From the IMG/VR virus record IMGVR_UViG_3300005731_000026, positions 1-32,171 of that record: a stretch of DNA of 32,171 bases; one strand, written 5' to 3'. The notes beneath the pieces are model-generated. The model made no database searches. It was not told where the DNA came from and was given only the letters and a program-made list of their open reading frames with translations. Positions 2 through 32,171 of this stretch are shown here, piece after piece (within the stretch, counting starts at the first letter, position 1; every line of letters starts with the position of its first letter). Both the position numbers and the translations under genes were made by a program. The DNA comes from a virus.

Positions 2-298
2 TTCCCTTGGTCAATCCCGCCGCACCACTCGCGCATTCGCCCCGGATACACGGTGTATCTTGCCCCTCACATCCTACGGCAGAGAGAAGAACTGAAAGCC
101 TATTTCGACGGGCGGAAAGAACCACGTAAGGGTCAGGTGTGGTTTCTGGTGGTAGAGACGCAAAACGGCACGTGTCAAATACCCTATGACTCCGAACCTG
201 ACGACAGCGTAAAAAACACGGAACTGACCTTAGCCTGCCTAGGCCCCATCCCATGGACAGAAGGTGAAGGCCTTCCCGATAACGGGAGTGGCGAATGA
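2..298 (+). CDS. Hypothetical protein, 5'-partial
   Basis: The reading frame is open to the left edge of the window with no stop, so this is the 3' part of a gene that begins outside. A GTG at 53 could be an internal start, but upstream in-frame sequence (ending PGYTVYLAP) reads as ordinary protein. The visible part has a basic helix-like stretch (HILRQREELKAYFDGRKEPR), then a beta-rich segment and a Pro/Gly-rich acidic tail. The stop overlaps the next start (ATGA at 295-298), placing it in the rightward early-type operon. I do not recognise the family. The last codons contain one copy of the CCCG-N4-CGGG palindrome. Confidence 0.6.
   Translation, partial: FPWSIPPHHSRIRPGYTVYLAPHILRQREELKAYFDGRKEPRKGQVWFLVVETQNGTCQIPYDSEPDDSVKNTELTLACLGPIPWTEGEGLPDNGSGE
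273..288. repeat. Dispersed palindrome B, site 1
   Basis: TTCCCGATAACGGGAG. Arms TCCCG/CGGGA are perfect around a 4-bp spacer. It lies in the last codons of the partial first gene, just before the ATGA junction. Confidence 0.7.
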
Positions 299-570
299 CC
301 CTCACACGAGACGATCTGAACCGTGCGCAGGCTATTGCTGAAAATGCTTATCGGTTGATGGGCACACGCTACGCCAAGCAACTGTTTATCGAAGCCTCCA
401 CAGAAGGCCAGATTGCCCCTAGAGGCGCAAAAAACCCTTACCCGGACAGCCACATGCTGAACGCTGCATGGGCACAGGGGCACCTTGTGTCGCGCCTGAA
501 AACCGATATTGCACGGTTACGGGCAGAACGCATTAAAGACCCTGTAGCAGTTGCGGCGGATGACGAATGA
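295..570 (+). CDS. Hypothetical protein, 91 aa
   Basis: A small, mostly helical, basic protein starting at an ATGA overlap with the preceding gene and ending in an ATGA overlap with the next. The segment near residues 46-62 (NPYPDSHMLNAAWAQGH) has the 'Pro-Tyr ... Trp-x-x-Gly' arrangement seen in small ribosome-modulation-factor/CrpP-like phage proteins, but the match is short. I infer no function from it. Spacing to both neighbours indicates translational coupling within one operon. Confidence 0.65.
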   Translation: MTLTRDDLNRAQAIAENAYRLMGTRYAKQLFIEASTEGQIAPRGAKNPYPDSHMLNAAWAQGHLVSRLKTDIARLRAERIKDPVAVAADDE

Positions 571-773
571 AAAAAGGCACCGACCAGATCACGGCAGAAC
601 GCCTTGCTGGCATGATTCAGAAAAACTGGCACGCCAGAGGTTTCACACAGGTCGCTACATGGGCAGAGGCAAAAGGTGGGGAATGGGCGGTCAAGTCCAA
701 TCTCATCAATGGTGCCCCTCCTGGGACACGTCCTGAGACACTTGGCTATCAGCTGATGGGAATGAGTGAATGA
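567..773 (+). CDS. Hypothetical protein, 68 aa
   Basis: Short basic protein with two helix-like segments (residues 7-30), a likely beta segment and no recognisable motif. It starts at ATG 567 inside the preceding stop (ATGA). Its own last codons form part of a tandem ATGAGTGA repeat leading into the next start. Small size, tight overlaps and lack of signal or membrane segments fit an accessory early phage protein of unknown function. Confidence 0.6.
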   Translation: MKKGTDQITAERLAGMIQKNWHARGFTQVATWAEAKGGEWAVKSNLINGAPPGTRPETLGYQLMGMSE

Positions 774-1015
774 GTGAATGGCAACCTATTGAGACAGCGC
801 CGAGAGACGGGACTCCATTGCTCGTAATTGCGGAAGGCGCTGGCTGGCGAGGTAAGTTTGCACGCATGTGCGCTACGTACCACTGTCACCAATGGCGGGT
901 GTATGGGCCGATACATGGGGAGCCATCGACGGCGGAAAAGGAGGGCCAGTGGATAATGGAAGTCCACCCCACCCACTGGATGCCCCTACCAGAACTACCG
1001 GAGACAGGCGAATGA
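770..1015 (+). CDS. DUF551-type protein, 81 aa
   Basis: Begins with SEWQPIETAPRDG and ends with HWMPLPELP, the two signature ends of the small DUF551 phage domain, whose role is unknown. The length (81 aa) is normal for a stand-alone domain. ATG 770 overlaps the preceding TGA (ATGA), and its stop overlaps the next ATG at 1012. A second copy of this domain forms the C-terminus of the leftward gene at 28513-29199, so the phage carries the domain in both transcription arms. Confidence 0.75.
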   Translation: MSEWQPIETAPRDGTPLLVIAEGAGWRGKFARMCATYHCHQWRVYGPIHGEPSTAEKEGQWIMEVHPTHWMPLPELPETGE

Positions 1016-1530
1016 GAACCAAAACCCCAACGGTTCACCGTCTCAAGTTTGAAGGCCGCGACTTGGCAGTCGTGGAAACCAAGACAGACCTGGACAACGA
1101 AAAGCACACGGCGTTAAAAAACGTGGACACATGCCCACTAGACCGCGCTTTCTACAAAATGAAACTGATTGATGAAGTGCAGCACCAAGCCGGGTCAATG
1201 TTCCACGCTAAGTGGCGTCACATATCTGTTGGGTCACTTGGGTGCCCCGATCTGGACAGACTGCCCGGCGAGAGCACGCACGCGACAAACGAAGCGGAAA
1301 TGCGCGCTCGCATATGGTTGAAAGACGTTCACCGCAACGTAGGTTGGCGGGATTGGGTATTGTTGCGCCTGATTTGTGGTGAGGAAAAGCCATTTGAGGA
1401 AGCCCGGCACATTCTGAATGATATTCCTGCGCTTGGCCGGAAAGTACCTCGAGACTATATCGGGCCAAGATTTGCTGAATCTCTGGATGCCTTGGCACTA
1501 CATATGGGCTTGACGCAGGTGCGGAGTTAG
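1012..1530 (+). CDS. Possible late regulator, DUF6456-like, 172 aa
   Basis: I chose ATG 1012, which overlaps the previous TGA, because a longer in-frame ORF would run across the preceding gene. The order of features resembles alphaproteobacterial DUF6456 proteins: a 'CPLDRAF' segment, a helix with an 'Ala-Gly ... Phe' pattern (DEVQHQAGSMFHAKW), then an 'R-x-R' helix, 'VGWRDWVLLRLICGE', and a final 'SLDALALHMGL' helix. This is similarity by eye only. Position matters: it is the last gene of the early run, directly before a promoter-like site, a structured non-coding stretch and a terminator. A Q-like antiterminator or late activator normally sits there. Plain hypothetical protein is the alternative. 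Confidence 0.55.
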   Translation: MRTKTPTVHRLKFEGRDLAVVETKTDLDNEKHTALKNVDTCPLDRAFYKMKLIDEVQHQAGSMFHAKWRHISVGSLGCPDLDRLPGESTHATNEAEMRARIWLKDVHRNVGWRDWVLLRLICGEEKPFEEARHILNDIPALGRKVPRDYIGPRFAESLDALALHMGLTQVRS

Positions 1531-1538
1531 TGTAAGGG
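1510..1538 (+). promoter_or_regulatory. Possible late promoter
   Basis: TTGACG at 1510-1515 is a near-consensus -35, followed 17 bp later by TAAGGG at 1533-1538, a weak -10. It would start RNA at about 1545, at the head of the structured non-coding stretch. The poor -10 keeps this tentative. Confidence 0.3.
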
Positions 1539-1539
1539 C

Positions 1540-1847
1540 ATTAGGTAGTACAGAAATTGCGCCTGCTGCTGATTTGCGGTGGGTGTTTTTGATTCCAGCG
1601 GCGGCGCCGAAAGTAGAAGCGTATGCGGACCACACCGCTACGGCCATGTGGTAAAGGCCGTTATCCGTGACTGGTAGTCATAGCCGGAGTAACGCCCAGC
1701 CCGCTGGATACAAGTTTGGTGACGCGCTTCCGTTCCTAGCGGGGTAAAAGCCTCATGGACTGCGACGTGTCTAGGATTAACGTCTAACGATTGCAGGCTC
1801 GTCACCATTTAATAGCCCCGCCCCTTTAACGAGGGAGCGGGGTTTTT
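1540..1847 (+). ncRNA. Structured non-coding stretch, candidate RNA or late leader
   Basis: No convincing ORF on either strand across about 300 bases, but many pairings. (1) GCGCC 1559-1563 pairs with GGCGC 1603-1607, continued by GCTG/CAGC. (2) ACCACA 1629-1634 pairs with TGTGGT 1647-1652. (3) GTTA 1660-1663 with TAAC 1690-1693, CCG with CGG, and TGACT 1668-1672 with AGTCA 1676-1680. (4) CCAG/CTGG at 1696-1707. (5) TGGTGACG 1717-1724 with CGTCACCA 1800-1807 closes a junction containing CGCT/AGCG, AGCCT 1749-1753 with AGGCT 1795-1799, and GACGT 1764-1768 with ACGTC 1780-1784. The adjoining helices of the last domain abut exactly, as in a folded RNA. It ends in an intrinsic terminator. I find no match to tRNA, tmRNA, RNase P or a riboswitch I know. 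Confidence 0.5.
1816..1847 (+). terminator. Intrinsic terminator
   Basis: CCCCGC 1816-1821 pairs with GCGGGG 1837-1842, extended by CCCT/AGGG with a bulge, and is followed by TTTTT 1843-1847. Classic rho-independent form. The T run merges with palindrome A site 1. Confidence 0.85.
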
Positions 1848-1860
1848 ACTTTCAAGAGTA
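1847..1860. repeat. Dispersed palindrome A, site 1
   Basis: TACTTTCAAGAGTA, followed by GGA, in the leader of the 1870 gene. It sits between a terminator T run and the ribosome binding site. Confidence 0.65.
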
Positions 1861-1869
1861 GGAAATTGC

Positions 1870-2100
1870 ATGGATATGATCGAACTGCGTGAGTTGCTTG
1901 CTGCCGCTATTGAAAGTGCCGGGCACAAAATCACAGGTTCCGGCTCTAGTATGGTGAGCCCCGAAACCGACCTTGATGTTGTGGTGGAGGGCCGCCGCTT
2001 TTGTGTCACGGTCAGAGATTTGGATGCGGCTCAGATCACGCCTGCGCCCATTCTGCACGGTGTCGGAGACGACGATACACCGCCCACCACATTCAACTAA
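1870..2100 (+). CDS. Hypothetical protein, 76 aa
   Basis: Small acidic protein: an N-terminal helix (IELRELLAAAIESAGHKI), then two beta-like stretches (DLDVVVEGRRFCVTVRDLD) and a Pro/Asp-rich tail. AGGA at 1860-1863 lies 6 bases before ATG 1870; ATG 1876 is a second possibility. It stands alone between two structured non-coding stretches, after a strong terminator, with palindrome A directly upstream. This suggests its own regulation or transcription only by antiterminated late RNA. Family unknown. Confidence 0.6.
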   Translation: MDMIELRELLAAAIESAGHKITGSGSSMVSPETDLDVVVEGRRFCVTVRDLDAAQITPAPILHGVGDDDTPPTTFN

Positions 2101-2108
2101 CACCAGAA

Positions 2109-2283
2109 TTACCCCGGCTCACTGCTACTCCCTAGAGAAGCGCAAGAGCTTAAACATGAGGCAGTCAGACGCCGGGGTAAGCCACATTCAGCGGCGTGAC
2201 GCAGCACCTCAAGAGCCGCCCCCTAAGTTGTGCTGGGCGAGTAGGGGCGACCGCGCGAGCCATAGGAACTTGGCCCGCTGAAT
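2109..2283 (+). ncRNA. Structured non-coding stretch, two-domain RNA candidate
   Basis: No convincing ORF. Domain 1: TTACCCCGGC 2109-2118 and GCCGGGGTAA 2171-2180 form a perfect 10-bp inverted repeat, with ACTGC/GCAGT pairing just inside. Domain 2: ATTCAGCGG 2186-2194 and CCGCTGAAT 2275-2283 form a perfect 9-bp inverted repeat enclosing CAGCAC/GTGCTG. The two domains are separated by 5 bases. The nested helices and lack of a T tail point to a folded RNA or leader rather than a terminator. A 12-codon ORF (2326-2364) with an AGAGAAA leader lies downstream and ends 3 bases before the holin start; it may simply couple translation. Confidence 0.5.
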
Positions 2284-2290
2284 ACCCATC

Positions 2291-2306
2291 TTCCCGTTAT
2301 CGGGAA
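2291..2306. repeat. Dispersed palindrome B, site 2
   Basis: TTCCCGTTATCGGGAA, perfect 6-bp arms, non-coding, 8 bases after the second structured stretch. It is the reverse complement of site 1 over 15 of 16 bases. Confidence 0.75.
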
Positions 2307-2367
2307 CAACACAAAGAGAAACCCTATGAAGCCAGACCACATTGAAGGCCGGGGCGGCAAATAGCTT

Positions 2368-2580
2368 ATGTCCCTCACATCCAACCCTGAGCAATTACAA
2401 CACGCGGCAGAAGTAGTGGCTAAGACTGGAACTTACACGGGGGCGGGTGTGGCTTTCATTGGTGGGATGACGGTCAACGAATTTGCGGCTTTGGCCGGTG
2501 TGGTCATCGGGATTATTGGTTTGGGCTTCCAGATATATTTCGGCTATCGGCGTGATCGCCGCGAACGGGGGCTTGGCTAG
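2368..2580 (+). CDS. Holin-like small membrane protein, 70 aa
   Basis: An N-terminal soluble stretch, a Gly-rich semi-hydrophobic segment (about residues 20-35, YTGAGVAFIGG), a strong membrane helix (about 39-58, FAALAGVVIGIIGLGFQIYF), then a short highly charged end (YRRDRRERGLG). This is the usual look of small class II-type phage holins, which form inner-membrane lesions that release or activate the endolysin. The start has no clear ribosome site and may be coupled to a tiny upstream ORF ending at 2364. Next to a second small membrane protein, as in holin/antiholin pairs. Confidence 0.7.
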   Translation: MSLTSNPEQLQHAAEVVAKTGTYTGAGVAFIGGMTVNEFAALAGVVIGIIGLGFQIYFGYRRDRRERGLG

Positions 2581-2796
2581 GTGATGCTTGCTCTTGCCCG
2601 CGTCACATGGAGGCCCATAGGCCTTCACGCTCTTACCTACTGCTTGGTTGCCTGCTGTGTGCTGGTTCCTGTTGGCGTCATCATTGGCGGTGAACTATTC
2701 GACCGCGCTCTTGATGCAGCAACCTGGATCGGTGGCGTGTGGGCTGTTCCTCATTTAACCCGTGAAGTCGGCAAGCGCATTGGGGGTGAATCGTAA
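2581..2796 (+). CDS. Small membrane protein, possible second holin or antiholin
   Basis: GTG 2581 follows the previous stop directly; ATG 2584 is an equally good start. One long hydrophobic segment (about residues 13-37, with Cys-rich LVACCVLVPVGVIIGG) and a weaker one near 47-56, ending in a basic tail. It is fused translationally to its neighbours: the stop TAA 2794-2796 shares its last base with the next ATG. Location beside the holin-like gene suggests a lysis role, but no family signature confirms it. Confidence 0.6.
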   Translation: MMLALARVTWRPIGLHALTYCLVACCVLVPVGVIIGGELFDRALDAATWIGGVWAVPHLTREVGKRIGGES

Positions 2797-3245
2797 TGCC
2801 TGGATTGATGGGTGTCGGGCGCATAGGACAGCTAGGTCAGCCCGCAGGCAAACCGGCGCTCGGCCCGAACCTGATTAGCAACGGCACATTCAACACAACA
2901 GCAGATTGGACCACTGTTTTTGGGGGCAACATTTCGGACGGCGTGTTGAAGTGCCAGAGCACGGGCGGGTTTGCGCGCGGTGTACAGGCGATAACAACTC
3001 AGTCCGGGCAGACATACCGCATTAGATACGATGTACCCTTGCTCAACAACAACGGCATCGTGCGTGTCGGCACGACTTCTACGGGGTTCGACGTGTTGAG
3101 CGAGAACGTTACCGCCACAGGGTCGGATTTCACCCATGATTTCGTGAGCACTGCGACTACTTTGTATGTCGGCCTATGGCTTGGCAGCAATACGTCCGGC
3201 CATCGTCTTGATTATGACAACGTGTCTGTACGGCGCGTTTTCTAA
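2796..3245 (+). CDS. Jelly-roll / carbohydrate-binding-like phage protein, 149 aa
   Basis: After a short Gly-rich N-terminus, the motif NLISNGTFNTTADWTT (about residues 25-41) opens a CBM4/9-like beta-sandwich. Later strands follow the same pattern (YRIRYDV, GIVRVGT, DFTHDFVSTATTLYVGLW) and it closes with YDNVSVRRVF. Phages use such modules on virion decorations or fibres to bind surface glycans. Sugar binding here is inferred from pattern only. No signal peptide. It follows the membrane proteins with a one-base overlap. Confidence 0.6.
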   Translation: MPGLMGVGRIGQLGQPAGKPALGPNLISNGTFNTTADWTTVFGGNISDGVLKCQSTGGFARGVQAITTQSGQTYRIRYDVPLLNNNGIVRVGTTSTGFDVLSENVTATGSDFTHDFVSTATTLYVGLWLGSNTSGHRLDYDNVSVRRVF

Positions 3246-3249
3246 CAAA

Positions 3250-3263
3250 TACTTTCAAGAGTA
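3250..3263. repeat. Dispersed palindrome A, site 2
   Basis: TACTTTCAAGAGTA, identical over 14 bases to site 1, again directly upstream of a ribosome binding site (AGGAGG at 3263-3268) and a gene start. Confidence 0.7.
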
Positions 3264-3276
3264 GGAGGCAAAGCGC

Positions 3277-3756
3277 GTGGATGATGTGCCGTTGTCTCCG
3301 CTTGAGTTCGCTCTAGCCTGCGCTGCGCTGATAGAACCAGAACTAGGCCAACAGGCTTTAGCCAACACTGACCGCACGATCACAACACAATCTCTTCCGT
3401 CATCGGGAATACCTGTCACAGCAGGCATAGACCGACACGGCAACCAATACGAAGCCCGTAATGACGCGGCGGGCGGCTTCAACTGGACGCGCGGCGCTGT
3501 ACTTCTGCCAGAGAACGCCAGCAAGCCTGCACAAGCCCATGAGGCCGGGCACGCTCTGCAATACCTGGCAGGCATGAAACCCGGTGCTCCTGATTCAGAC
3601 CAACGCCGCGCCATAGAGCGCCAAGCCTACAACATTGAACAACAAGCCCCTTACCAATGCCTCACATTCTGGGGCAACTGGGATGAAGACAAACTAGGGC
3701 CTCTTGCCCGCAAGCTGACAGGTGGTTTTCTTACACCGTTTAAGGAGAAACAATAG
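3277..3756 (+). CDS. Predicted zinc metallopeptidase (HEXXH), 159 aa
   Basis: GTG 3277 is supported by AGGAGG 8 bases upstream. The motif AHEAGHALQY gives HEXXH at residues 88-92, with a downstream helix containing E114 (AIERQAYNIE) that could be the third zinc ligand, as in gluzincins. The preceding VLLPENA strand and the short 'AHE-GHA-Q' helix recall YugP/Zn_peptidase_2-like and other phage-borne peptidases. Length is close to a minimal peptidase domain; no signal peptide or membrane helix. Possible roles are prohead or structural-protein processing, or activity on a host protein. Located between the lysis-type genes and the head genes, and preceded by palindrome A. Confidence 0.6.
   Translation: MDDVPLSPLEFALACAALIEPELGQQALANTDRTITTQSLPSSGIPVTAGIDRHGNQYEARNDAAGGFNWTRGAVLLPENASKPAQAHEAGHALQYLAGMKPGAPDSDQRRAIERQAYNIEQQAPYQCLTFWGNWDEDKLGPLARKLTGGFLTPFKEKQ
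3394..3409. repeat. Dispersed palindrome B, degenerate site
   Basis: CTTCCGTCATCGGGAA: one perfect arm CGGGAA, the other with two mismatches. Inside the metallopeptidase gene. Confidence 0.35.
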
Positions 3757-4080
3757 ATGTCCCGCTTATACATCTCAGAGTTCACAGAAACAGCGGTCAT
3801 CAAAGGCCGCGAAATCCCAGCCATTAACGTGAAGGATAAGGTCACAGACCAGTCCGTAGCGATTGGTGCAACTGCTGCATCCTCTAATGCCTTCGCCTCA
3901 AACACAGGGCTGGTGCGCATAAAGGCAACGGCGGACTGCCATGTTGAGTTTGGGGCCACGCCCACAGCCGTTAAGACAGCAGGGTCAGAAGTGGGTATCA
4001 CACTTACAGCAGGAGAAGCAGAATACGTCGCTGTGCCTGCGGGTAGTTCCTACAAACTTTCAGTAATAGCAACAGCTTAA
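3757..4080 (+). CDS. Small phage structural protein, 107 aa
   Basis: All-beta, Ala/Thr-rich protein of the kind often found just before terminases. A segment with 'GATAASSNAFASNTGLVRIKA' character is followed by CHVEFGA and a closing 'GEAEYVAVPAGSSYKLSVIA'. Similar small proteins in other podophages are annotated as virion-associated or decoration-like without proven function. AAGGAG at 3742-3747 lies 9 bases before ATG 3757, which directly follows the preceding stop. I cannot assign it more precisely. Confidence 0.6.
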   Translation: MSRLYISEFTETAVIKGREIPAINVKDKVTDQSVAIGATAASSNAFASNTGLVRIKATADCHVEFGATPTAVKTAGSEVGITLTAGEAEYVAVPAGSSYKLSVIATA

Positions 4081-4096
4081 CGCTTGCACCAACACC

Positions 4097-7768: not shown

Positions 7769-7806
7769 CAATCCGCCCGTTCACAGCGTTATGTGTTCAT
7801 TTGAAG

Positions 7807-16383: not shown

Positions 16384-18237
16384 ATGCCCGAAACAGACCG
16401 CGTAAAGCGCAACATCGGCAAGATGATAGACGGCGGCGCTAGTGAAGGTGAAATTGACACCTACATTGCATCCGAAGGTGTAACGCTGGAAGACATCAAT
16501 CCGCCCTCGCCTACTCTTGAGCCAAATACATACCGGGGCACAATCCTGCCTTTCGAGCGCAATCTCGATACGGGCGAAACGAGCCTTGCCGTGCCTGGTA
16601 TATTCCCCGCCATCGGCAGCGCTGTTGCGGACGCCGCCACGCTCCCCGGCGATGTGTATTCGGGCAAGCAACCAATCCGTGATGAAGACGGGGACATCAA
16701 CCGGGAAACTATTGAGCGGTCCACCAACCTTGGCCTGTTCTCGTCTCCGATGTCCCCCGCATCACGCGTGGGGCTTCCCAAATCTGCTGAAGTGTTGGTT
16801 CCCAAAAAAGCCGCCCCGCTCACCGAGGGGCAACAAGTCGCGACTTCAGCGCAGCGATTAGGCGTTGACCTTCCTCGCGCGGTTTCCAGCGACAGCATGG
16901 CCGTGCAGCAGGGTGGAAAACTGTTGGCGAATGTGCCTGTTGCGGGCAATCCGTTGCGCAAGGCATCTCAGGCGGCGATTGGTCAGCTTGACGACGCGGC
17001 GCGTTCCACACAAACCCGCCTCGGGTCTGGCAGCGTTCCTGCTGCTGGTGCTGATTTGCGCGCGGGCATTGAGGCTACGACAGGCAAGGGCGGCACCATG
17101 GCCGCACGCGCGACTGCGAAATACGAGCGCGTTGACCGGCTTGTGGACCCCACCATCACATCCCCCCTGAAGGTTACACAGGCCACTGTGCAGAACATCG
17201 CGGCCAAGCGCAGTAATGCTCGGATTGCGGGTGAAAGCCAAGCCATTGCCACTGTGAAAGAAGCACTGGCACGCAGGGAAGGACTTAACTACGAAGGCTT
17301 GAAAGACCTGCGCACGTCCGTTGGCGAAATGCTCAAGGATACGCGCGGCCTCCCGGCTGGAACGTCTCAGAAGGAGCTAAAGCAGATATACGGCGCACTG
17401 ACCACTGACCTGCGCGCTGCGGTGGCGAAGGCTGGCGGCAAGCCCGCGCTACAAGCCTTCAACCAGGCCAACAAGTTCTATGACGTTATGGCCGCAGAGC
17501 GAAAGGCGCTGACAAACATTCTCCGGGTGCAAAGTGATGAGGCCATTGTCGATAAAATGCTTGCCACAGCAGGCCAGACAAGCCGCGCGAATATGCAAAT
17601 GCTGCGGCGTGTGAAAGGGGCGGTCAGCAAGGACACATGGAATGAATTGGGGGCCGCTGCAATTTCCAGAATGGGCCGGGCACCATCCGGCGAGTTTTCG
17701 CCACAGCGGTTCCTGACCTCATACGGAAAGATGTCCCCCGGCGGTAAGGTAGCCTTGTTTGACAAGACAACCATGGGTGCACTTGACGACATCGCACGTG
17801 TTTCTACGCGCTTCAAGCAACTGAACCAGTTCGCCAACCCTTCAGGGACCACACAAACCATACTCGGTCCGGCGGCGGTTGGCTCGGCATATTTGGAACC
17901 CGTAACGACACTCACAACCCTTGCGGGCGCCTATGGGGCATCAAAACTTCTGGCCCGCCCAACGTCGGCAAAGCTGGTCGCGGACTGGGCCAAGGCGTCC
18001 GAGCGCATGGTGCTGGACCCGTCAACGGGCGCAAAAAACCTTCTAGCCGCCCGCAGTCAGCCTTTGGCCTTGTTGATAGCCAAGGAGTCCGGTGGCGCGC
18101 TTAGCGCAGCGAATGTCGCGGCGCGTCTTCAAAGCATCAGCCGTGGCGCAGCAGAGGACGACCGCGGGGACAGCCCAAATCCCAGCCAACAACCAAATAA
18201 TAACCCACGTCCCTACGACCCAAGGCTTGATCTGTAA
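16384..18237 (+). CDS. Large ejection / internal virion protein candidate, 617 aa
   Basis: ATG directly follows the previous stop. Long, mostly helical and Ala-rich, with an N-terminal 'KMIDGGASEGEIDTYIASEG' helix pair, a loop-rich segment to about residue 130 (FPAIGSAVADAATLPGDVY) and long helices from about 190 to 560. The C-terminus is hydrophilic. Composition and position match the largest ejected protein of P22/T7-like phages. I see no transglycosylase catalytic motif, so peptidoglycan cleavage is not claimed. Confidence 0.65.
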   Translation: MPETDRVKRNIGKMIDGGASEGEIDTYIASEGVTLEDINPPSPTLEPNTYRGTILPFERNLDTGETSLAVPGIFPAIGSAVADAATLPGDVYSGKQPIRDEDGDINRETIERSTNLGLFSSPMSPASRVGLPKSAEVLVPKKAAPLTEGQQVATSAQRLGVDLPRAVSSDSMAVQQGGKLLANVPVAGNPLRKASQAAIGQLDDAARSTQTRLGSGSVPAAGADLRAGIEATTGKGGTMAARATAKYERVDRLVDPTITSPLKVTQATVQNIAAKRSNARIAGESQAIATVKEALARREGLNYEGLKDLRTSVGEMLKDTRGLPAGTSQKELKQIYGALTTDLRAAVAKAGGKPALQAFNQANKFYDVMAAERKALTNILRVQSDEAIVDKMLATAGQTSRANMQMLRRVKGAVSKDTWNELGAAAISRMGRAPSGEFSPQRFLTSYGKMSPGGKVALFDKTTMGALDDIARVSTRFKQLNQFANPSGTTQTILGPAAVGSAYLEPVTTLTTLAGAYGASKLLARPTSAKLVADWAKASERMVLDPSTGAKNLLAARSQPLALLIAKESGGALSAANVAARLQSISRGAAEDDRGDSPNPSQQPNNNPRPYDPRLDL

Positions 18238-20007: not shown

Positions 20008-20323
20008 CATCAAAGCTATGGCCATAGGCGGCGCTGTGATCGCTTCTCTGGCGTTTACGTCCGGTTGGGTGGTGAACGGCTGGCGACACTCAGCAAGCGA
20101 GCTGGGCAAGCTCACAGACGCCATAGAAGCCGCTGAAACCCGTGTGAACAACATCGGCACTGCCGCAGAGGCTTCGGCCCTCCGCCTTGCTGAAATCAAC
20201 TCTCAAGCCCTCCAAAACAGCCAGAGGATTGCTTCCTATGCTGCTGAGACCAATGCTTGCCGGATTACTGCTGACGATATCCGCGTGTTCACCCGCAATC
20301 CAGACGGTGCCAATACGGATTGA
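20000..20323 (+). CDS. Inner-membrane spanin (Rz-like)
   Basis: TTG 20000 has AAAGGAG 6 bases upstream; ATG 20018 is an alternative. One N-terminal membrane helix (about residues 7-24, MAIGGAVIASLAFTSGWVV) followed by a periplasmic coiled coil (ELGKLTDAIEAAETRVNNIG, continuing to about residue 90). This is the i-spanin plan. It pairs with the outer-membrane lipoprotein encoded in the +1 frame inside its 3' half, to fuse inner and outer membranes at the end of lysis. 107 aa is a usual size. Confidence 0.8.
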   Translation: MLNIKAMAIGGAVIASLAFTSGWVVNGWRHSASELGKLTDAIEAAETRVNNIGTAAEASALRLAEINSQALQNSQRIASYAAETNACRITADDIRVFTRNPDGANTD

Positions 20324-20474
20324 CGCCTCTTTGCTGCAAGAATGCCCGGACCTGTTGCCCCCCGATATCGGGACACCATGGATAGCCTATGCTGATTATC
20401 AGCGGACGGAATATCTACGGTGCCAGGAACGCCACAAGGGCCTCTCTGAAGCTGCGAAAGCGGCAACGGAATGA
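20238..20474 (+). CDS. Outer-membrane spanin lipoprotein (Rz1-like)
   Basis: Overlaps the 3' end of the i-spanin gene in another frame. From ATG 20238 (GAGG about 9 bases upstream) the signal sequence LLRPMLAGLLLTISAC ends in a lipobox with Cys17 as the lipidated residue; ATG 20253 would still keep the lipobox. The mature part is short with a Pro-containing stretch (LLPPDIGTPW) and charged C-terminus. The arrangement matches overlapping Rz/Rz1 pairs. Starts farther upstream in the frame are unlikely because they give no proper signal peptide. Confidence 0.78.
   Translation: MLLRPMLAGLLLTISACSPAIQTVPIRIDASLLQECPDLLPPDIGTPWIAYADYQRTEYLRCQERHKGLSEAAKAATE
20359..20374. repeat. Dispersed palindrome B, site in spanin gene
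   Basis: CCCCCGATATCGGGAC; the 12-bp core CCCGATATCGGG is a perfect palindrome. Inside the o-spanin coding sequence. Confidence 0.65.
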
Positions 20475-21658: not shown

Positions 21659-21900
21659 GCGACCCAATTCCCGATGTCGGAGCATTGCCAGAGCATCTGC
21701 TTTGGCTGGATTACGACGCAGACGACAGAGTGCTTGCCCGCCGCATGTCGGTGCTGGCTCTACTTTCGGCAGTACCGTTTGAAACGGTTGAAGATTTTAT
21801 TTCAGCCTTTGTGACGGCAGATGATTACGTGGCCAACGGTCTTGAGAATATCCAAAGCCCACCGGCCACGGTTACGACCATTAAGGGCGGCAAGAAATGA
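21655..21900 (+). CDS. Hypothetical protein, 81 aa
   Basis: Starts at the ATGA overlap; a longer in-frame version would lie across the phosphoesterase gene. Acidic, helical protein (HLLWLDYDADDRVLARRMSV, 'FETVEDFISAFVTADDYV') with no membrane segment and no known motif. Both dispersed palindromes occur within it: B right after the start and A in the middle. Function unknown. Confidence 0.6.
   Translation: MSDPIPDVGALPEHLLWLDYDADDRVLARRMSVLALLSAVPFETVEDFISAFVTADDYVANGLENIQSPPATVTTIKGGKK
21668..21683. repeat. Dispersed palindrome B, site near gene start
   Basis: TTCCCGATGTCGGAGC: one perfect arm TTCCCG, the other CGGAGC. It begins 13 bases inside the 81-aa gene. Confidence 0.5.
21761..21774. 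repeat. Dispersed palindrome A, degenerate site
   Basis: TACTTTCGGCAGTA, one mismatch in the right arm, coding. Confidence 0.4.
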
Positions 21901-23826: not shown

Positions 23827-23831
23827 TTTCT

Positions 23832-24351: not shown

Positions 24352-24352
24352 C

Positions 24353-24553
24353 TCATTCCTCCTTCCCGGTATCGGGAGTGGGTGGGTCAACCGGCACCCC
24401 CAAATGCGAGCGTAGTGTTCTCCATGCTTCGGCGTAGTCAGCCCTATCAAAAGCAAATTCTATGCGTGGCATTGTCTCAATCCGGAAGCCCGTAATGCGG
24501 TCTTCGTCGGTGTGACAACGCACGAGAATTGATATCGCGGTGTCCAACTTCAT
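24353..24553 (-). CDS. Hypothetical protein, 66 aa
   Basis: ATG 24553 preceded by GGAGG. Alpha/beta protein (MKLDTAISILVRCHTDEDRI, 'IEFAFDRADYAEAWRTLRSH') with a Pro-rich acidic tail, whose last codons (PDTGKEE) overlie palindrome B. The stop is 1 base from the next start at 24351, showing coupling. Unknown function. Confidence 0.6.
   Translation of the reverse strand: MKLDTAISILVRCHTDEDRITGFRIETMPRIEFAFDRADYAEAWRTLRSHLGVPVDPPTPDTGKEE
24363..24378. repeat. Dispersed palindrome B, gene-end site
   Basis: TTCCCGGTATCGGGAG followed by TGG; same outer bases as site 1 (CC before, TGG after), again in the last codons of a gene just upstream of the next start. Confidence 0.7.
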
Positions 24554-24556
24554 CTC

Positions 24557-25763: not shown

Positions 25764-25788
25764 CCTGTTCCTTTATCTGTGTGGGTGG

Positions 25789-25980
25789 TCATGAGAGTGC
25801 CAGGTACAGTATCCAGACGAAAAGCAACGGGACCAGAAGGGCAAGTGCGCCGAAAAACGACATAGCGGCTCCCGTGCCAAAGTGATCGGTCCCGCGTTCC
25901 GCTGGCGAGAACACCAACCAACAAACAAAAACGACTGTCAGCAAAGTGGGTACGGCCCACCATCCAATTGTGATTTCCAT
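25789..25980 (-). CDS. Two-helix membrane protein, 63 aa
   Basis: Two hydrophobic helices (about residues 8-25, VPTLLTVVFVCWLVFS, and 41-60, FFGALALLVPLLFVWILYLA) joined by a short loop with charges (PAERGTDHF). Typical of small early phage membrane proteins. ATG 25980 overlaps the next stop; GTG 25983 is an alternative start. Possible superinfection exclusion or host-membrane role; unproven. Confidence 0.65.
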   Translation of the reverse strand: MEITIGWWAVPTLLTVVFVCWLVFSPAERGTDHFGTGAAMSFFGALALLVPLLFVWILYLALS

Positions 25981-26336
25981 CACCCTTCCCCTCCCTGAGT
26001 GTTACTTTCAGGAGTAGATTTGAGGGCGCGGAAGGCTTTGGCGGCATCTCTGTGAACACCCGCAGACCAATAACCTGTTGCGCGAGAACCAGTGCGGACT
26101 GTCTCCGCTTGTTGCTCCGCTCGAACGGACGCCTCTCTCGCGTCATGCCATTGCGCCGCTTCTTCCAAAGCATCATCCCCCGCCTTAGCTTCCCGTTGTA
26201 GGGAGGCTTCTAGTTCTTTGGTGAGGCGGGCCAGCTTCTCCCTGTCTGCTTCTAGGGTGGCGAGAAGGTCTCGTATCCGGCCTTCCTGATGCTGGATGGT
26301 CACTTCATAATCGCCTACGGTTCTGCCTCGGCTCAT
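25980..26336 (-). CDS. Coiled-coil protein, 118 aa
   Basis: Residues 15-85 form a long charged coiled coil (RIRDLLATLEADREKLARLT, continuing with KELEASLQREAK). The C-terminal 35 residues are loop-rich, and 'STPESNTQ' is encoded across palindrome A. ATGA overlaps the HNH gene's stop. May be a structural or partner protein; no enzymatic motif. Confidence 0.6.
   Translation of the reverse strand: MSRGRTVGDYEVTIQHQEGRIRDLLATLEADREKLARLTKELEASLQREAKAGDDALEEAAQWHDAREASVRAEQQAETVRTGSRATGYWSAGVHRDAAKAFRALKSTPESNTQGGEG
26003..26016. repeat. Dispersed palindrome A, gene-end site
   Basis: TACTTTCAGGAGTA, in the last codons of the coiled-coil gene, near the next start. Confidence 0.6.
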
Positions 26337-26824: not shown

Positions 26825-26976
26825 AACGGCACCCCTGAATCATCGTCAAAGTCACCATTCCCGACATCGGAGCTTGTGTTAGGCAAACGGGTCTTTTGGT
26901 TCCGTTCGCCAAGCTGCACACCCTTCGAGTGCAGCCATTGTCTTCTTGTCTTGCCACCGGGCGGATTCCTTGACAT
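26821..26976 (-). CDS. 51-aa protein with SSB-like acidic tip
   Basis: ATG 26976 has AAGGA about 9 bases upstream, and its TGA overlaps the HNH start. The N-terminus is basic (SRNPPGGKTRRQWLHSKG) and the C-terminus ends GDFDDDSGVPF, close to the acidic -DDDIPF tip with which bacterial SSB recruits partner proteins. It overlaps the upstream 73-aa gene by 98 bases in another frame. It could be a free SSB-tip mimic, a decoy for host SSB partners, or a +1 frameshift extension of that gene. Confidence 0.5.
   Translation of the reverse strand: MSRNPPGGKTRRQWLHSKGVQLGERNQKTRLPNTSSDVGNGDFDDDSGVPF
26858..26873. repeat. Dispersed palindrome B, site near tip gene end
   Basis: TTCCCGACATCGGAGC: left arm perfect, right arm CGGAGC like the 21668 site. 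Confidence 0.5.
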
Positions 26977-27494: not shown

Positions 27495-27504
27495 GTGGTA
27501 AGTC

Positions 27505-28118: not shown

Positions 28119-28207
28119 GACAGCCCCCATATAATCAGTGCCCAGAGCAACAGAGAGCCAAATATGGCTATCAAGAACCCCTCCAAGCGTGGTGGTAGCT
28201 TTGGCAT
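28106..28207 (-). CDS. 33-aa single-pass membrane peptide
   Basis: ATG 28207 follows the preceding stop immediately, with GGAGG 8 bases upstream, so translation is likely. After a short basic N-terminus (MPKLPPRLEG) the remainder is one hydrophobic helix (FLIAIFGSLLLWALIIWGLS). Probably an early membrane protein. No homologous family is evident to me at this length. Confidence 0.58.
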   Translation of the reverse strand: MPKLPPRLEGFLIAIFGSLLLWALIIWGLSWVF

Positions 28208-28516
28208 CTACTTACCCTCCTTACTGTCTAGGAGGGTGCCAAAAGCCTTGGCTGCCTCGGCGATATCTTTTGCGATAGCAGGCGTGCAGTCGTCATCGGC
28301 TCCAATAAGTTCCGCTGCCACTTCGAGATTGACGATATGTCGCTCCAATTCCTCTACCCGCTGTACAGGGGAGGGGGCTTTATCCGCTTCATGCAGCGCA
28401 TTGGCAGCGTATGCGCGGCAAGTTCGTCTTTCAGTGCTGGGGGTGTCTTCCCAGCAATGAGCACCACGGGCGAGTGCAACTTGCTTTGCTATGGCCTGAA
28501 TCAACGCTTCGCTCAT
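28208..28516 (-). CDS. Hypothetical protein, 102 aa
   Basis: ATG 28516 overlaps the next stop (ATGA) after GGAAGGG. Helical, with two Cys in the first third (AHCWEDTPSTERRTCRAYAA) and a heptad-like helix (VQRVEELERHIVNLEVAAEL). Layout resembles small phage early proteins with no known function. Confidence 0.6.
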   Translation of the reverse strand: MSEALIQAIAKQVALARGAHCWEDTPSTERRTCRAYAANALHEADKAPSPVQRVEELERHIVNLEVAAELIGADDDCTPAIAKDIAEAAKAFGTLLDSKEGK

Positions 28517-29199
28517 GACCCTTCCCCCTCTGACTTAGTGGGGGTGGGGGCAGGCGGAAGTGGCATCCAGTGAGTGATGCGCTCATTGAGTGGTTTGGAT
28601 CCGGTGCCGAAAATCGCCCAATGGCCGGGCGCTCCATCGGTCTCCCACCAATGGACTGCATACGTGCAACGATTGTCAGGACACCAAACCAGCCGGGCCA
28701 CTGGATTGCGTGGTGCCGTCTCTATAGGCTGCCAGCCCCCAACAGTGGGGAGTGTGGAGAGGGCGTCCGCAGCGGCCATCCGAGCATCAACAGCAAATCC
28801 GTTCATGTGTCGCGCGAAGGCTTCCCACGAGTGGGCGACAGGGTCTGGTGCAGGTTTGGCGGGTCCGCGCCTAATCTTCTCCAAAGCCTCCCGCATCACA
28901 GCTTGTGCCGCCTCGTATTCCTTTGCCGCGACTTGCAGATCGCCAACGATCACATCGCTGCCGAGCATGGACATAGCGGCCCCACACCGGGCAAGCCACA
29001 TGTCACGCTGCTCCCGCATCACACCTACTTGTGAGAGTATGGAACGCAGCAACGCCCAATCATCGCGTACCAAATCCTCGAAGACATTTAAATCGGCCCG
29101 TGCGGTTTTGATATGCGTGCTGCCAAACTCGCGCCGGGTCTTGTCGAGGGCGCTCAAGAGCTCTGACAACCGTTCCACGTCTTTATTGAGTTCAGTCAT
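28513..29199 (-). CDS. Coiled-coil protein with C-terminal DUF551, 228 aa
   Basis: Residues 1-120 are helical with an N-terminal coiled coil (LNKDVERLSELLSALDKTRR). The C-terminal 75 residues form a full DUF551 domain from GWQPIETAPRNP to ITHWMPLPPAP. A stand-alone DUF551 gene lies at 770-1015 on the other strand. AGGA lies 9 bases before ATG 29199. The domain seems to be a movable module; function unknown. Confidence 0.7.
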   Translation of the reverse strand: MTELNKDVERLSELLSALDKTRREFGSTHIKTARADLNVFEDLVRDDWALLRSILSQVGVMREQRDMWLARCGAAMSMLGSDVIVGDLQVAAKEYEAAQAVMREALEKIRRGPAKPAPDPVAHSWEAFARHMNGFAVDARMAAADALSTLPTVGGWQPIETAPRNPVARLVWCPDNRCTYAVHWWETDGAPGHWAIFGTGSKPLNERITHWMPLPPAPTPTKSEGEGS

Positions 29200-29407
29200 T
29201 GGGGTGTTCCTCTAGCTCGAAGCCTTCGCAGTAAGCCGCCACATCGCCGAAGTAGTAATCAGGCCCGTCCATTGGCGGCGTGCCGTCGCAGTAGAAGTAG
29301 CCTGCAGCATAGCTGGCCGTGATGGGCTGCTTATGCAGCGGGTTGGAATCGTTTGGGTACAGAATGAGCCGCTGACCGTCCGCCAAATTCTCGTAATCGG
29401 TGCGCAT
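29192..29407 (-). CDS. Hypothetical protein, 71 aa
   Basis: ATG 29407 after a GGGGGACAGG run. Beta-rich and aromatic (QRLILYPNDSNPLHKQPITA, 'YFYCDGTPPMDGPDYYFGDV') with an acidic end. 8-base overlap with the next gene. No recognised family. Confidence 0.55.
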   Translation of the reverse strand: MRTDYENLADGQRLILYPNDSNPLHKQPITASYAAGYFYCDGTPPMDGPDYYFGDVAAYCEGFELEEHPND

Positions 29408-29689
29408 CTACCTGTCCCCCTTGTCTGAGAGGGCGGCGTTCAGCTTGCGCATAGCAAACTTGTCGTCTGCGTTGTCAACGATGAGCGCGCCGGTTAACTG
29501 GTAGCGTCGGTTCGCCTCGCTTGCAGCCTCCACAAGCTCTTTCACGCCTGCTGCTTGGAGGGCTGCTTTGGCAATCTCGCGGGCTTCACTTGGCAGCATT
29601 GCTTGCGCACCGTGTTCGTATGCGCGGCTGCAAATCTCTTTCGCCGCAGCCTCCACCATTTCTTCCCATGCTTTATCTGTATTGGTCAT
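29408..29689 (-). CDS. Hypothetical protein, 93 aa
   Basis: Almost entirely helical (WEEMVEAAAKEICSRAYEHG, 'SEAREIAKAALQAAGVKELV', 'KFAMRKLNAALSDKG'), of the kind common in phage early operons. Its ribosome site and start (TAAGGAACAGTCATG on the coding strand) are identical over 15 bases to those of the 29725-29943 gene, a repeated translation start. Confidence 0.6.
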   Translation of the reverse strand: MTNTDKAWEEMVEAAAKEICSRAYEHGAQAMLPSEAREIAKAALQAAGVKELVEAASEANRRYQLTGALIVDNADDKFAMRKLNAALSDKGDR

Positions 29690-29701
29690 GACTGTTCCTT
29701 A
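29687..29701 (-). repeat. Repeated translation-start element, copy 1
   Basis: TAAGGAACAGTCATG on the minus strand, identical to 29941-29955. Contains AAGGA and the ATG. Confidence 0.6.
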
Positions 29702-29724
29702 GCGAGTTCAGCGATATTCTCGGT

Positions 29725-29943
29725 CTAAACAGGGAGCACCATGACCGCGCCAATGCCTGCATCGCGGGCTTTACATGCAACATCAAGATAGGAGTCGCCT
29801 GTGACGTAGAGCGCGGGCCGAATGAAAACCCTGTCCGAGGCGCAATACCCTGGGGCCACGCTCAGGCGCTCCCCAACCGGCAGTCCGACAAACGGAGTTG
29901 TTACGTGCAGGTGTTCTGCTGGGGTTGTTTCAAGTTCACTCAT
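29725..29943 (-). CDS. Hypothetical protein, 72 aa
   Basis: ATG 29943 overlaps the preceding stop (ATGA). Beta-rich with 'VGLPVGERLSVAPGYCASDR' and a C-terminal 'CKARDAGIGAVMVLPV'. No motif. The gap of 35 bases to the next gene holds only the repeated start element. Confidence 0.55.
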   Translation of the reverse strand: MSELETTPAEHLHVTTPFVGLPVGERLSVAPGYCASDRVFIRPALYVTGDSYLDVACKARDAGIGAVMVLPV

Positions 29944-30320
29944 GACTGTTCCTTATGTGTACGGGTGTTCCAGAGGGTGATTGCTTGCATTCCAAGCTTG
30001 GCAATGACTTCTTCAATGATGCTGACCGGCACAAAACCGTAAACGGTCTCCGTTGGGTCTGTGTCCTCATCGCCTTCGATGTAGGGCATCAAGAGTTCTT
30101 CCCGTTCACTTGGGAACCCAACTTCAACCTGCGTGTAGCGATCTGCGTAATTGGTGCGAGGCGAGCAGTAAGCGCCTCTATGCCCCTGAACGCTCATCGT
30201 GAAGCCGTCCGCGCATTCCATGCGGGGGAACACCTGGATGCCCACTGACGCTCGTTCGTCGGGGTAGTGCCCTTTGAAAAAGGCGTTCACAATATCCGGC
30301 GTATGTTTTCCTTCTGGCAT
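29940..30320 (-). CDS. Hypothetical protein, 126 aa
   Basis: Alpha/beta protein opening with PEGKHTPDIVNAFFKGHYPD, a His/Tyr-rich core (GHRGAYCSPRTNYADRYTQV) and a C-terminal helix (VSIIEEVIAKLGMQAITLWN). The order resembles small phage proteins whose function is unknown. One-base overlap with its upstream neighbour and ATGA overlap with the next gene. Confidence 0.6.
   Translation of the reverse strand: MPEGKHTPDIVNAFFKGHYPDERASVGIQVFPRMECADGFTMSVQGHRGAYCSPRTNYADRYTQVEVGFPSEREELLMPYIEGDEDTDPTETVYGFVPVSIIEEVIAKLGMQAITLWNTRTHKEQS
29941..29955 (-). repeat. Repeated translation-start element, copy 2
   Basis: Second 15-of-15 copy of TAAGGAACAGTCATG (minus strand), at the start of the 29725-29943 gene and the end of the 29940-30320 gene. 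Confidence 0.6.
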
Positions 30321-30526
30321 TAGAGGTCTCCCTTGGATCGGAATGTGGAAGGGTTCGCCCCCATATGCGTGTCGAACCGCTCAACCGCTGCCTTCAATTC
30401 GTCCCACATCTCTGCTTCGTGCTTTGTCCCACGGTAGAAGTGCAATTTGATTGCGCACCCGGCCAGGTCACACACCACATCATGTGGTTGCGGGATTCTG
30501 TCGCGCGTTAGGGTTTTCCAAAACAT
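30320..30526 (-). CDS. Hypothetical protein, 68 aa
   Basis: ATG 30526 preferred (AAGGAGG about 8 bases upstream, overlapping the previous TGA); GTG 30529 is possible. Contains 'DVVCDLAGCAIKLHFYRGTK' and a C-terminal helix 'EMWDELKAAVERFDTHMG'. No family recognised. Confidence 0.55.
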   Translation of the reverse strand: MFWKTLTRDRIPQPHDVVCDLAGCAIKLHFYRGTKHEAEMWDELKAAVERFDTHMGANPSTFRSKGDL

Positions 30527-30996
30527 CACAGCGCCTCCTTTCCACCAGTAAGACCCGCTGCAATAATTGAGGCAGAGGCAAAGTCAGGCTTACTTTTGAG
30601 AGTAGGGGTGTCGGCCTCCGCCTTAATAGCAGCCCACTTTTTGTCCCAACGCGCCTTGGCTTCAGCTTCGCCATAAAACAGGTGTTGCTGGCGTGACCGC
30701 GCAAGCACTTCCAGCCCATCGACGTTGTGTTTTGTGCCCAACCGCATCGCTGCGTCGTGGAACAGTGAGTCCAGCGTGTCGCGCGTTTGCAGGATCAGGT
30801 TGTCTTGATCTTCAACCGATACCGGGGAAACAGACGCCAGTGCATCAAGCGCCGTATTGAGAGCCACACGAAACGCAAGAGATGCGTCGGCGTAGCTGTC
30901 AAAAAGCTGGTTGATGCTGCGCTGCACGTAACGGTCGCCGGGCATTCCTGCGTCACACCACTTGTCAAAGTCGCCTAGCTGTTCTGTGCGGTCCAT
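30526..30996 (-). CDS. First gene of leftward operon, hypothetical, 156 aa
   Basis: ATG 30996 chosen: GGAGG lies 8 bases upstream and it begins just inside the divergent control region. A much longer in-frame ORF would cross the HTH gene on the other strand and is rejected. Helical protein (RSINQLFDSYADASLAFRVA, 'DTLDSLFHDAAMRLGTKH', 'EAEAKARWDKKWAAIKAE'). As promoter-proximal gene it would be the most highly expressed early product. 'PTLKSKP' near the C-terminus is encoded across palindrome A. Confidence 0.62.
   Translation of the reverse strand: MDRTEQLGDFDKWCDAGMPGDRYVQRSINQLFDSYADASLAFRVALNTALDALASVSPVSVEDQDNLILQTRDTLDSLFHDAAMRLGTKHNVDGLEVLARSRQQHLFYGEAEAKARWDKKWAAIKAEADTPTLKSKPDFASASIIAAGLTGGKEAL
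30591..30604. repeat. Dispersed palindrome A, gene-end site
   Basis: TACTTTTGAGAGTA followed by GGGG, near the 3' end of the first leftward gene. Confidence 0.55.
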
Positions 30997-31046
30997 CCTA
31001 AGTCCTCCATCTGCGGGACTAGGTGTGTCCCGGTTGATGAATGTAA

Positions 31047-31062
31047 TGTACGATTGTTTCGC
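31047..31062. promoter_or_regulatory. Operator candidate, left half of inverted repeat
   Basis: TGTACGATTGTTTCGC. Its reverse complement recurs with one change at 31133-31148. Lies in the leader of the leftward operon. Confidence 0.6.
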
Positions 31063-31098
31063 ACTAATAGCAACCGAAAAAACCGCACATAGAAAAAA

Positions 31099-31128
31099 AT
31101 TATGTCTGTGCGAAAAAACCGTTTGCAA
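31099..31128 (-). promoter_or_regulatory. Leftward early promoter candidate
   Basis: On the minus strand: TTGCAA (31128-31123) as -35, 18-base spacer, CATAAT (31104-31099) as -10, within an A/T-rich stretch. Transcription would start near 31092 and run into the leftward operon. CGAAAAAACCG occurs twice around it (31075-31085 and 31111-31121). Confidence 0.55.
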
Positions 31129-31132
31129 ATGC

Positions 31133-31148
31133 GCGAAACTATCGTACA
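31133..31148. promoter_or_regulatory. Operator candidate, right half of inverted repeat
   Basis: GCGAAACTATCGTACA, 15 of 16 bases inverted relative to 31047-31062, just upstream of the HTH start. Likely bound by the HTH protein and placed to control both divergent operons. Confidence 0.6.
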
Positions 31149-31156
31149 AAGGGTAC

Positions 31157-31381
31157 ATGAACATCGCAGAAAACATCATCGCCAAGTTCGGCGGCATCAG
31201 GCCGATGGCCTCTAAAACAGGCATCGCACCCTCAACAATACAGTCGTGGAAGGTTGCCACACGCATTCCTGCGAAGCGACAGGAGGCAGTGCTCAACCAT
31301 GCCTTGCGGCTTGGTGTGCCGTTGGCGCCCGCAGACTTTTTTGCAGAAGCACCAGACCAATCGGAGACGTGCAATGGGTAG
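31157..31381 (+). CDS. Cro/CI-like HTH regulator, 74 aa
   Basis: ATG 31157, with AAAGGG just upstream. The frame stays open farther upstream, but that extension would cover the control region. The pattern 'IIAKFGGIRPMASKTGIAPS' then 'TIQSWKVATRIPAKRQEAVL' and 'GVPLAPADFF' matches a small HTH family common in alphaproteobacterial prophages (carph-isopro type). The recognition helix would be within STIQSWK. It probably represses its own promoter and the leftward promoter through the inverted sites. No separate CI-type repressor with a cleavable domain is seen in the window. The next gene overlaps its end by 8 bases. Confidence 0.75.
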   Translation: MNIAENIIAKFGGIRPMASKTGIAPSTIQSWKVATRIPAKRQEAVLNHALRLGVPLAPADFFAEAPDQSETCNG

Positions 31382-32171
31382 CGTTGTGCAAGAGCCGTCC
31401 CGGTCCATTGAACTGACCCCCATCGGCATCAAGATCGCGCCAGGAGCCACGCAGGACGAAATCCGCGAGCAAGCCTTGCAGATGCTCTATGTGGCCAACA
31501 TGGCCCCCCTGTATGCAGCAGACCTGATTATTCTGATGCGGGACCGCTTTGGAGATGACGCGGCGGCGGAGCTTATCCCCGCTGTCGGGAAGACCAAGCA
31601 CACGGTGCAAAACTGGCTTTCGATTGCGCGCCAGTTCCCCATTACCCGCCGCAAGAATGGCCTGGAGATGGGGCATTACGATGCTGTCTCTGTCATCAAG
31701 GACAAAGAGGGCAAACCTCTAACCGACAAGCAAGACGCCCTGATTGAGCTGATGGCCAGCGACGGCCCGGACGCTGTGTGGACGGTTGCCAAGGCACGGC
31801 AGGAAGCAAACGAAATCCGCGACCGCGCGCAAGGCAGGCTGATTGATATTCCCGATGACGGGAAAGAAGAAGATGCTGACAAGCCAGTGTTTGATGGTGG
31901 CGACTTTGGCGAAGGCATGAGTGCTGAACGCGAAGCCCGCGACACGTTTGAGACAGACGGCTTTGATGACATAGAGCGAATGCGCAAGGTTTGGGCCAAG
32001 CAGACCCCGGACCTGCATTTGCGCTTTTTGCGCTCTGTCATGACCGCCGATCTGTTCATGCAGCTTGCCCCTGATTTCCAACAATCCAAATCGCATGTTG
32101 AGCCTCAGTCCTCCCTGTCTCCGGCTCCATGTGACGCTCCCGGCGGTGTCATCCCCGCTGCCGGGAGCACC
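31374..32171 (+). CDS. Possible DNA-binding early protein, 3'-partial
   Basis: ATG 31374 has GGAG 6 bases upstream. The frame is open for 266 codons to the window edge, so the end is missing. After residue 30 it is helical (VANMAPLYAADLIILMRDRF), with a possible HTH at 'LIPAVGKTKHTVQNWLSIAR'. An acidic central region follows (DIPDDGKEEDADKPVFDGGD), then a basic helix and a Pro/Ser tail. Located right after the regulator, where replication or partition proteins often lie; function is not identified. Three palindrome B copies fall inside it. Confidence 0.65.
   Translation, partial: MGSVVQEPSRSIELTPIGIKIAPGATQDEIREQALQMLYVANMAPLYAADLIILMRDRFGDDAAAELIPAVGKTKHTVQNWLSIARQFPITRRKNGLEMGHYDAVSVIKDKEGKPLTDKQDALIELMASDGPDAVWTVAKARQEANEIRDRAQGRLIDIPDDGKEEDADKPVFDGGDFGEGMSAEREARDTFETDGFDDIERMRKVWAKQTPDLHLRFLRSVMTADLFMQLAPDFQQSKSHVEPQSSLSPAPCDAPGGVIPAAGST
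31576..31591. repeat. Dispersed palindrome B, site in last gene
   Basis: TCCCCGCTGTCGGGAA: core CCCG-N4-CGGG intact, right arm perfect. Confidence 0.6.
31849..31864. repeat. Dispersed palindrome B, perfect site
   Basis: TTCCCGATGACGGGAA, both 6-bp arms perfect; coding. Confidence 0.7.
32136..32168. repeat. Palindrome B site within a larger inverted repeat
   Basis: GCTCCCGGC 32136-32144 is inverted at GCCGGGAGC 32160-32168, and TCCCCGCTGCCGGGAG (32152-32167) is a palindrome B copy inside it. The window ends 3 bases later. Confidence 0.55.

Follow-up and report, generated by a model that had tools for sequence, protein, structure and literature searches.

Dispersed, Mostly Intragenic Palindromes in a Podovirus-Like Phage Genome as Candidate Operators of a Phage-Encoded Protein Other than Cro

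The Locus and Its Palindromes

The subject of this analysis is a family of dispersed palindromes, TTCCCG-N4-CGGGAA (family B), in the IMG/VR virus record IMGVR_UViG_3300005731_000026, whose entire length of 32,171 bases is referred to below as the window. The phage genome is incomplete, as open reading frames (ORFs) run past both record ends; a contig overlapping the record and extending its right end was searched for, and none was found. The TerL, portal, and capsid proteins group the phage with podovirus-like phages, of which several are temperate. Toward the right end lie a cro-like gene with its divergent promoter and, after it, a gene starting at 31374. The family B consensus is a 16-bp dyad, TTCCCGWYRWCGGGAA, with CCCG-N4-CGGG as the exact core, and the sites are scattered over the window (Table 1). 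Gene limits were set by hand from the ORFs, and site positions are those of the start of the 16-mer, the exact core beginning two bases further.

Table 1. Family B sites, and the genes and operators of the switch region, in the window (PWM, position weight matrix).
Feature	Position	Strand	Context	PWM score
Family B site TTCCCGATAACGGGAG	273..288		Within gene 53-298 (C-terminal codons), 14 nt before ATG 295	23.0
Family B site TTCCCGTTATCGGGAA, perfect	2291..2306		Intergenic, upstream of mini-ORF at 2326	24.3
Degenerate family B site CTTCCGTCATCGGGAA	3394..3409		Within gene 3277-3756	16.3
Family B site ATCCCGACAACGGGAA	5495..5510		Within terL	
Exact core with poor flanks GACCCGTCAACGGGCG	18016..18031			11.9
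Family B site CCCCCGATATCGGGAC	20359..20374		Within gene 20187-20474	
Degenerate family B site TTCCCGATGTCGGAGC	21668..21683		13 nt past ATG 21655	13.3
Family B site TTCCCGGTATCGGGAG	24363..24378		C-terminus of gene 24353-24553(-), adjoining ribosome-binding site of next minus-strand gene	
Degenerate family B site TTCCCGTTGTAGGGAG	26190..26205		Within gene 25980-26336(-)	16.3
Degenerate family B site TTCCCGACATCGGAGC	26858..26873		Intergenic, upstream of HNH gene (-)	
Family B site TCCCCGCTGTCGGGAA	31576..31591		Within gene 31374	
Family B site TTCCCGATGACGGGAA, perfect	31849..31864		Within gene 31374	
Family B site TCCCCGCTGCCGGGAG	32152..32167		Within gene 31374, at record end	
Divergent-promoter operator cluster, GTACGATTGTTTCGCAC and copies	31047..31148			
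P22-Cro-like helix-turn-helix (HTH) protein, 74 aa	31157..31381	+		
Gene after cro, running off record end	31374..32171	+	Three family B sites inside; candidate binder	

Counts Against Chance

The exact core occurs nine times in the window. The original prediction had listed eight of these, all of which were found, and had overlooked the one at 18018, which, given its poor flanks, is probably the single one due to chance. The chance expectation of about one exact core, estimated there by hand, was reproduced by both types of shuffling, at 0.98 in 100 dinucleotide shuffles (the highest count being 4) and at 1.02 in synonymous-codon shuffles with the proteins fixed, where 0 of 2000 reached nine; the observed count is well above both controls. 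The longer form, TCCCG-N4-CGGGA, had been claimed five times and is indeed present at 274, 2292, 5496, 24364, and 31850, versus 0.10 expected in the synonymous-codon shuffles. In an unbiased screen for 5-mer palindromes covering 149 loci of at least 10 kb (the window and its relatives), this form ranks first (corrected p 7.7e-6). The output of a mismatch-tolerant palindrome screen, by comparison, was governed by base composition. Degenerate sites were chosen by eye from mismatch lists and scored afterwards; those at 3394, 21668, and 26858 had already been noted, one at 26190 adds a fourth, and their PWM scores exceed background, bringing the family to nine exact and four degenerate sites across 32 kb.

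The same controls bear on the possibility of a protein-coding coincidence, by which recurrent P-(D/A)-x-G turns, encoded as CCC GAY NNC GGG, would generate the palindrome. This turn can be read in one frame at 7 of the 13 sites, but the remaining sites lie in other frames or in noncoding DNA, and with the proteins held fixed the shuffles stay around one copy and never yield nine. Coding bias as the main cause is ruled out by these shuffles, and such a coincidence has a negligible chance of being the explanation. The view of these sequences as dispersed operators that coding does not explain is supported by the codon shuffles, by the 149-locus screen, and by the half-site profile described below.

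Form of the Site

Read outward from the dyad, the half-site profile is R-W-C-G-G-G-A-A (26 half-sites from 13 sites). All nine exact cores are centered on a pyrimidine-purine (YR) step, as are the four degenerate sites, making 13 of 13; the step is always TA, CA, or TG and never CG. Such YR steps are flexible. Among the cores found in relatives, 34 of 90 and 22 of 45 have a YR center. The dyad geometry of family B, an N4 spacer with a YR step at every site, would be compatible with operators of the P22/434 type, in which a central spacer is read indirectly.

Where an outer pair departs from the consensus, it does so on one side (C-A or A-C), and there are no compensatory pairs. As the outer pairs vary singly and without compensation, the pattern fits two monomers each reading its own half; judged from the sequences, this independent variation would fit a DNA-bound homodimer, and an RNA hairpin or terminator less so. 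Stem-loops of the type UUCCCG-N4-CGGGAA in transcripts are conceivable, in that a 6-bp stem with a tetraloop is possible for the perfect copies, but the outer pairs break as C-A, and, unlike in intrinsic terminators, the stem-loops are mostly not followed by T-runs, with only 5495(-) and 26190(+) passing a loose terminator scan. Moreover, the hairpin is not formed in its local context at three of the eight sites tested. Terminators or RNA hairpins were rejected on the T-run scan and local-context folding, and they appear highly improbable as the basis of the family.

Placement of the Sites

Eleven of the 13 sites fall in predicted genes and two are intergenic, a near-random placement for DNA that is 94% coding. 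Four are located within 60 bp upstream of starts, a weak enrichment (p 0.046), and enrichment at gene junctions is likewise weak. The idea of boundary sequences between recombining phage modules, one of the parallels originally drawn, therefore appears unlikely, as some sites interrupt genes, terL (5495) among them, and show little preference for gene junctions. Three of the nine exact sites occur within 600 bp of gene 31374, forming a weak cluster (p 0.08).

The Cro Operator

The operator motif of the switch, GTRCGA-N5-TCGYAC, is 17 bp long and differs from family B. The cluster at 31047-31148 holds GTACGATTGTTTCGCAC and GCGCGAAACTATCGTAC, which flank two weaker copies, at 31074 and 31110; GTACGATTGTTTCGCAC is a perfect match to the 17-bp dyad at 31048, and a one-mismatch copy is located at 31131. 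No family B site is present in this divergent promoter region, and no CI gene can be seen in the (incomplete) record.

These observations bear on the proposal that family B belongs to the phage's own Cro/immunity system, its sites being operators or stoperators, with one repressor, either the HTH protein encoded at 31157 or its CI partner, serving the dispersed sites as well as the switch, in the manner of phage L5. A phage with a Cro-like gene and numerous dispersed sites would be in line with this proposal, as would the fact that P22-type operators are likewise symmetric dyads whose central bases are read indirectly. However, the switch region carries a different operator in place of family B, and the same separation of switch and dispersed sites is repeated in the related prophage described below. 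Cro was accordingly rejected on operator evidence: since its own divergent promoter carries a different motif and no family B site, the 31157 protein, originally suggested as the binder, is probably not the protein that reads family B, and the Cro/immunity explanation as a whole seems improbable.

Relatives and Hosts

The relatives identified through structural genes include L003 (TerL 70%) and L004 (TerL 69%), along with RHph_Y1_10, KLEP18-1, and MW202512, which are isolates or assembled genomes; the nearest are about 66% identical to this phage in DNA. The terL site (5495) is not found in the terL of L003. Two further relatives have four YR cores each, L036 being a GC-rich contig with GC-only centers and L247 lacking the flanks. 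The original prediction had named a lack of conservation in related phages as evidence against it. With regard to the exact sites, conservation is indeed lacking; however, the relatives are no closer than the identity just given, and one of them possesses an analogous family with another sequence. Some contigs carry palindromes of other kinds. A Paraburkholderia contig has six TTACC-N5-GGTAA palindromes in about 200 bp (L130:57-260) that look like a local array of operators or iterons, and a related viral contig has three palindromes of the GTATCC...GATAC type (L025:2093, 4788, and 8111), possibly its own operators. A GcrA-like protein is annotated in RHph_Y1_10.

A host regulator motif, or a composition effect driven by the host, was another possibility, as a phage must use host transcription and could exploit a host factor. 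However, TTCCCGNYRNCGGGAA is at chance in 385 alphaproteobacterial and 369 gammaproteobacterial genomes, with at most three copies per genome, and 12 genomes that harbor related prophages have one copy or none. With family B at chance in these 754 genomes and none of them showing an excess, a host regulon was rejected, and the host factor considered in the original prediction finds no support in the two classes sampled, which may not include the host of this phage; we regard a host origin as quite improbable. Within the reach of the searches made, family B is specific to the phage.

A Related Prophage and Gene 31374

A search with the 31374 protein revealed a homolog (27% identity) in an alphaproteobacterial prophage (G042), where its gene closely follows cro. 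The TerL (55%), portal, and capsid proteins of this prophage are likewise related to those of the phage, and it also encodes an integrase, RecT, GcrA, and a TetR-type protein. It possesses a dispersed palindrome of its own, GCTCGC-N2-GCGAGC, and all 13 copies found in the 3.74-Mb genome are confined to 54 kb of prophage (G042:C1:1841687-1895521; L223/L224/L225; corrected p 1e-29), mostly inside predicted genes and in several frames. Its CI/Cro intergenic region carries a separate operator, TTACCC-N5-GGGTAA. Thus each of the two phages has a local 17-bp switch operator of 6-N5-6 form plus an unrelated dispersed palindrome family, the evidence for an analogous family coming from this one prophage. 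Another perfect palindrome, GGTTATTAATAACC, has three copies in the same prophage (G042:C1:1872042, 1881680, and 1892284), one of them inside the 31374 homolog and one adjoining a GCTCGC site. The prophage-encoded GcrA-family and TetR-family proteins map to G042:C1:1878718-1879306 and 1891885-1892257.

The protein reading family B would be either the 31374 product or the product of a gene beyond the record. Region 15-102 of the 31374 protein shows a weak similarity to LmbU (plasmid tblastn, E 0.02-0.05), no Pfam match was found for the protein, and a single-sequence structure model is poor, with a predicted local distance difference test (pLDDT) score of 46. One explanation built on this gene is that family B provides sites for a replication, partition, or DNA-organizing protein of the lambda O, ParB/KorB, or Noc-like type, possibly the 31374 product, in or beyond its own gene. 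It draws on the location of three exact sites by the gene, on the position of the homolog, also close downstream of cro, and on the presence in MW202512 of a ParB with a ParB HTH domain. The clustering, however, is weak, and the 31374 protein, in addition to lacking a Pfam match and a good model, has no real similarity to this ParB; with BLAST negative, it is unlikely to be a ParB. No ParB or Noc family match was found among the proteins scanned in the window, the record being incomplete. The G042 homolog gene also contains no GCTCGC-N2-GCGAGC site, though one GGTTATTAATAACC lies inside it. A replication or partition role appears rather unlikely.

Other Features of the Window

A further dispersed palindrome, family A (TACT-N6-AGTA, consensus TACTYTYRARAGTA), has eight copies (1847, 3250, 14142, 21761, 26003, 28077, 29026, and 30591) versus 0.07 expected in synonymous-codon shuffles, and five of the eight precede a predicted start by no more than 100 bp (p 0.0045). 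It statistically outranks family B, and coupling of the two families is not significant. The stretch at 1531-1846 (about 300 bp), in which no gene is convincing, ends in a hairpin and T-run (GCCCCGCCCCTTTAACGAGGGAGCGGGGTTTTT); no Rfam match was found, and this region is a possible candidate for an untranslated RNA.

Interpretation

Overall, the evidence seems best explained if family B represents about a dozen scattered operators, each a 16-bp dyad (TTCCCGWYRWCGGGAA), to which a homodimeric protein encoded by the phage and other than the local Cro would bind, acting as a genome-wide silencer, roadblock, or organizer, a reading to which we give a probability somewhat above one half (about 0.55). 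Each monomer would read CGGGAA, and the four central bases would probably be read indirectly, via the bendable TA or CA/TG step. The protein would occupy the predicted sites genome-wide and mostly inside genes. As the sites are mostly intragenic, roadblock or silencing, or DNA organization, is favored over promoter control, and the most likely role would be that of a genome-wide silencer or elongation roadblock in lysogeny, or of an organizer of phage DNA, and not of a classical promoter switch.

Several observations weigh against this reading. No excess of family B was found in L003, L004, RHph_Y1_10, KLEP18-1, or MW202512, and any dispersed family is lacking in most other relatives. No sigma-70-like promoter matches were found near the sites, which are not concentrated at promoters. 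The GCTCGC-N2-GCGAGC family does not share the YR center of family B, and a second genome with a 31374 homolog (G806) has no strong dispersed family. As this genome and most other relatives do without such a family, the trait must be considered patchy and 31374 unproven as its partner.

A broader possibility, which we put forward tentatively and with some doubt, is that an alphaproteobacterial lineage of podovirus-like temperate phages sharing this type of capsid and terminase carries a second genome-wide binding system beside CI/Cro, employing mostly intragenic palindromes, with its specificity renewed throughout the genome between relatives. If true, a phage-encoded dimer on about a dozen palindromes would silence or organize the prophage, through TTCCCG-N4-CGGGAA here and through GCTCGC-N2-GCGAGC in the relative. 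Symmetric and mostly intragenic sites of this kind, limited to the prophage and separate from the operator of CI/Cro, would suggest an extra layer of prophage silencing or DNA organization.

Comparison with Known Systems

A few phages, namely the cluster A mycobacteriophages and SPbeta, provide well-described cases of dispersed repressor sites. Outside phage repressors, dispersed palindromes are also known as the sites of Noc (Bacillus) and KorB (RK2), and the Noc site has TTCCC/GGGAA half-sites, as in family B, but without the 4-bp gap. The start-associated sequences of cluster K mycobacteriophages are asymmetric and are found 3-7 bp before start codons (PMC3203893). Like family B, they are short dispersed repeats of one phage group, some of them beside starts; in family B, however, start association is weak.

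In terms of the form of the site, P22 c2/Cro and 434-type operators are comparable, being dyad half-sites around uncontacted central bases that the P22 and 434 repressors read indirectly, by DNA structure (PMC3317979). Those operators are clustered at the switch promoters, whereas family B is scattered and absent from the divergent switch region.

L5-type stoperators, the first parallel named in the original prediction, are 13-bp asymmetric sequences of cluster A mycobacteriophages, located in operators and short intergenic spaces, with an orientation tied to transcription (PMC9283540), and those of the L5 gp71 type are bound by a monomer, by the same repressor that acts at the switch (PMC9283540, PMC6550527). 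The dispersal matches, with many copies of a short sequence spread over the genome, also outside promoters, and with motif variants specific to the phage. The other properties do not: family B is symmetric by its half-site profile and has no transcription-oriented asymmetry, its sites are mostly intragenic, and it is not the motif of the immunity switch. By analogy, the likeness would be somewhat functional only.

The SPBRE sequences of Bacillus phage SPbeta are dispersed phage repressor sites located in promoter regions (PMC10516654), unlike family B, with its sites largely inside predicted genes, and their repressor, MrpR, has a tyrosine-recombinase fold. The resemblance lies in a dispersed repeat, about 15 bp long, that belongs to a temperate phage and was known in silico long before its repressor.

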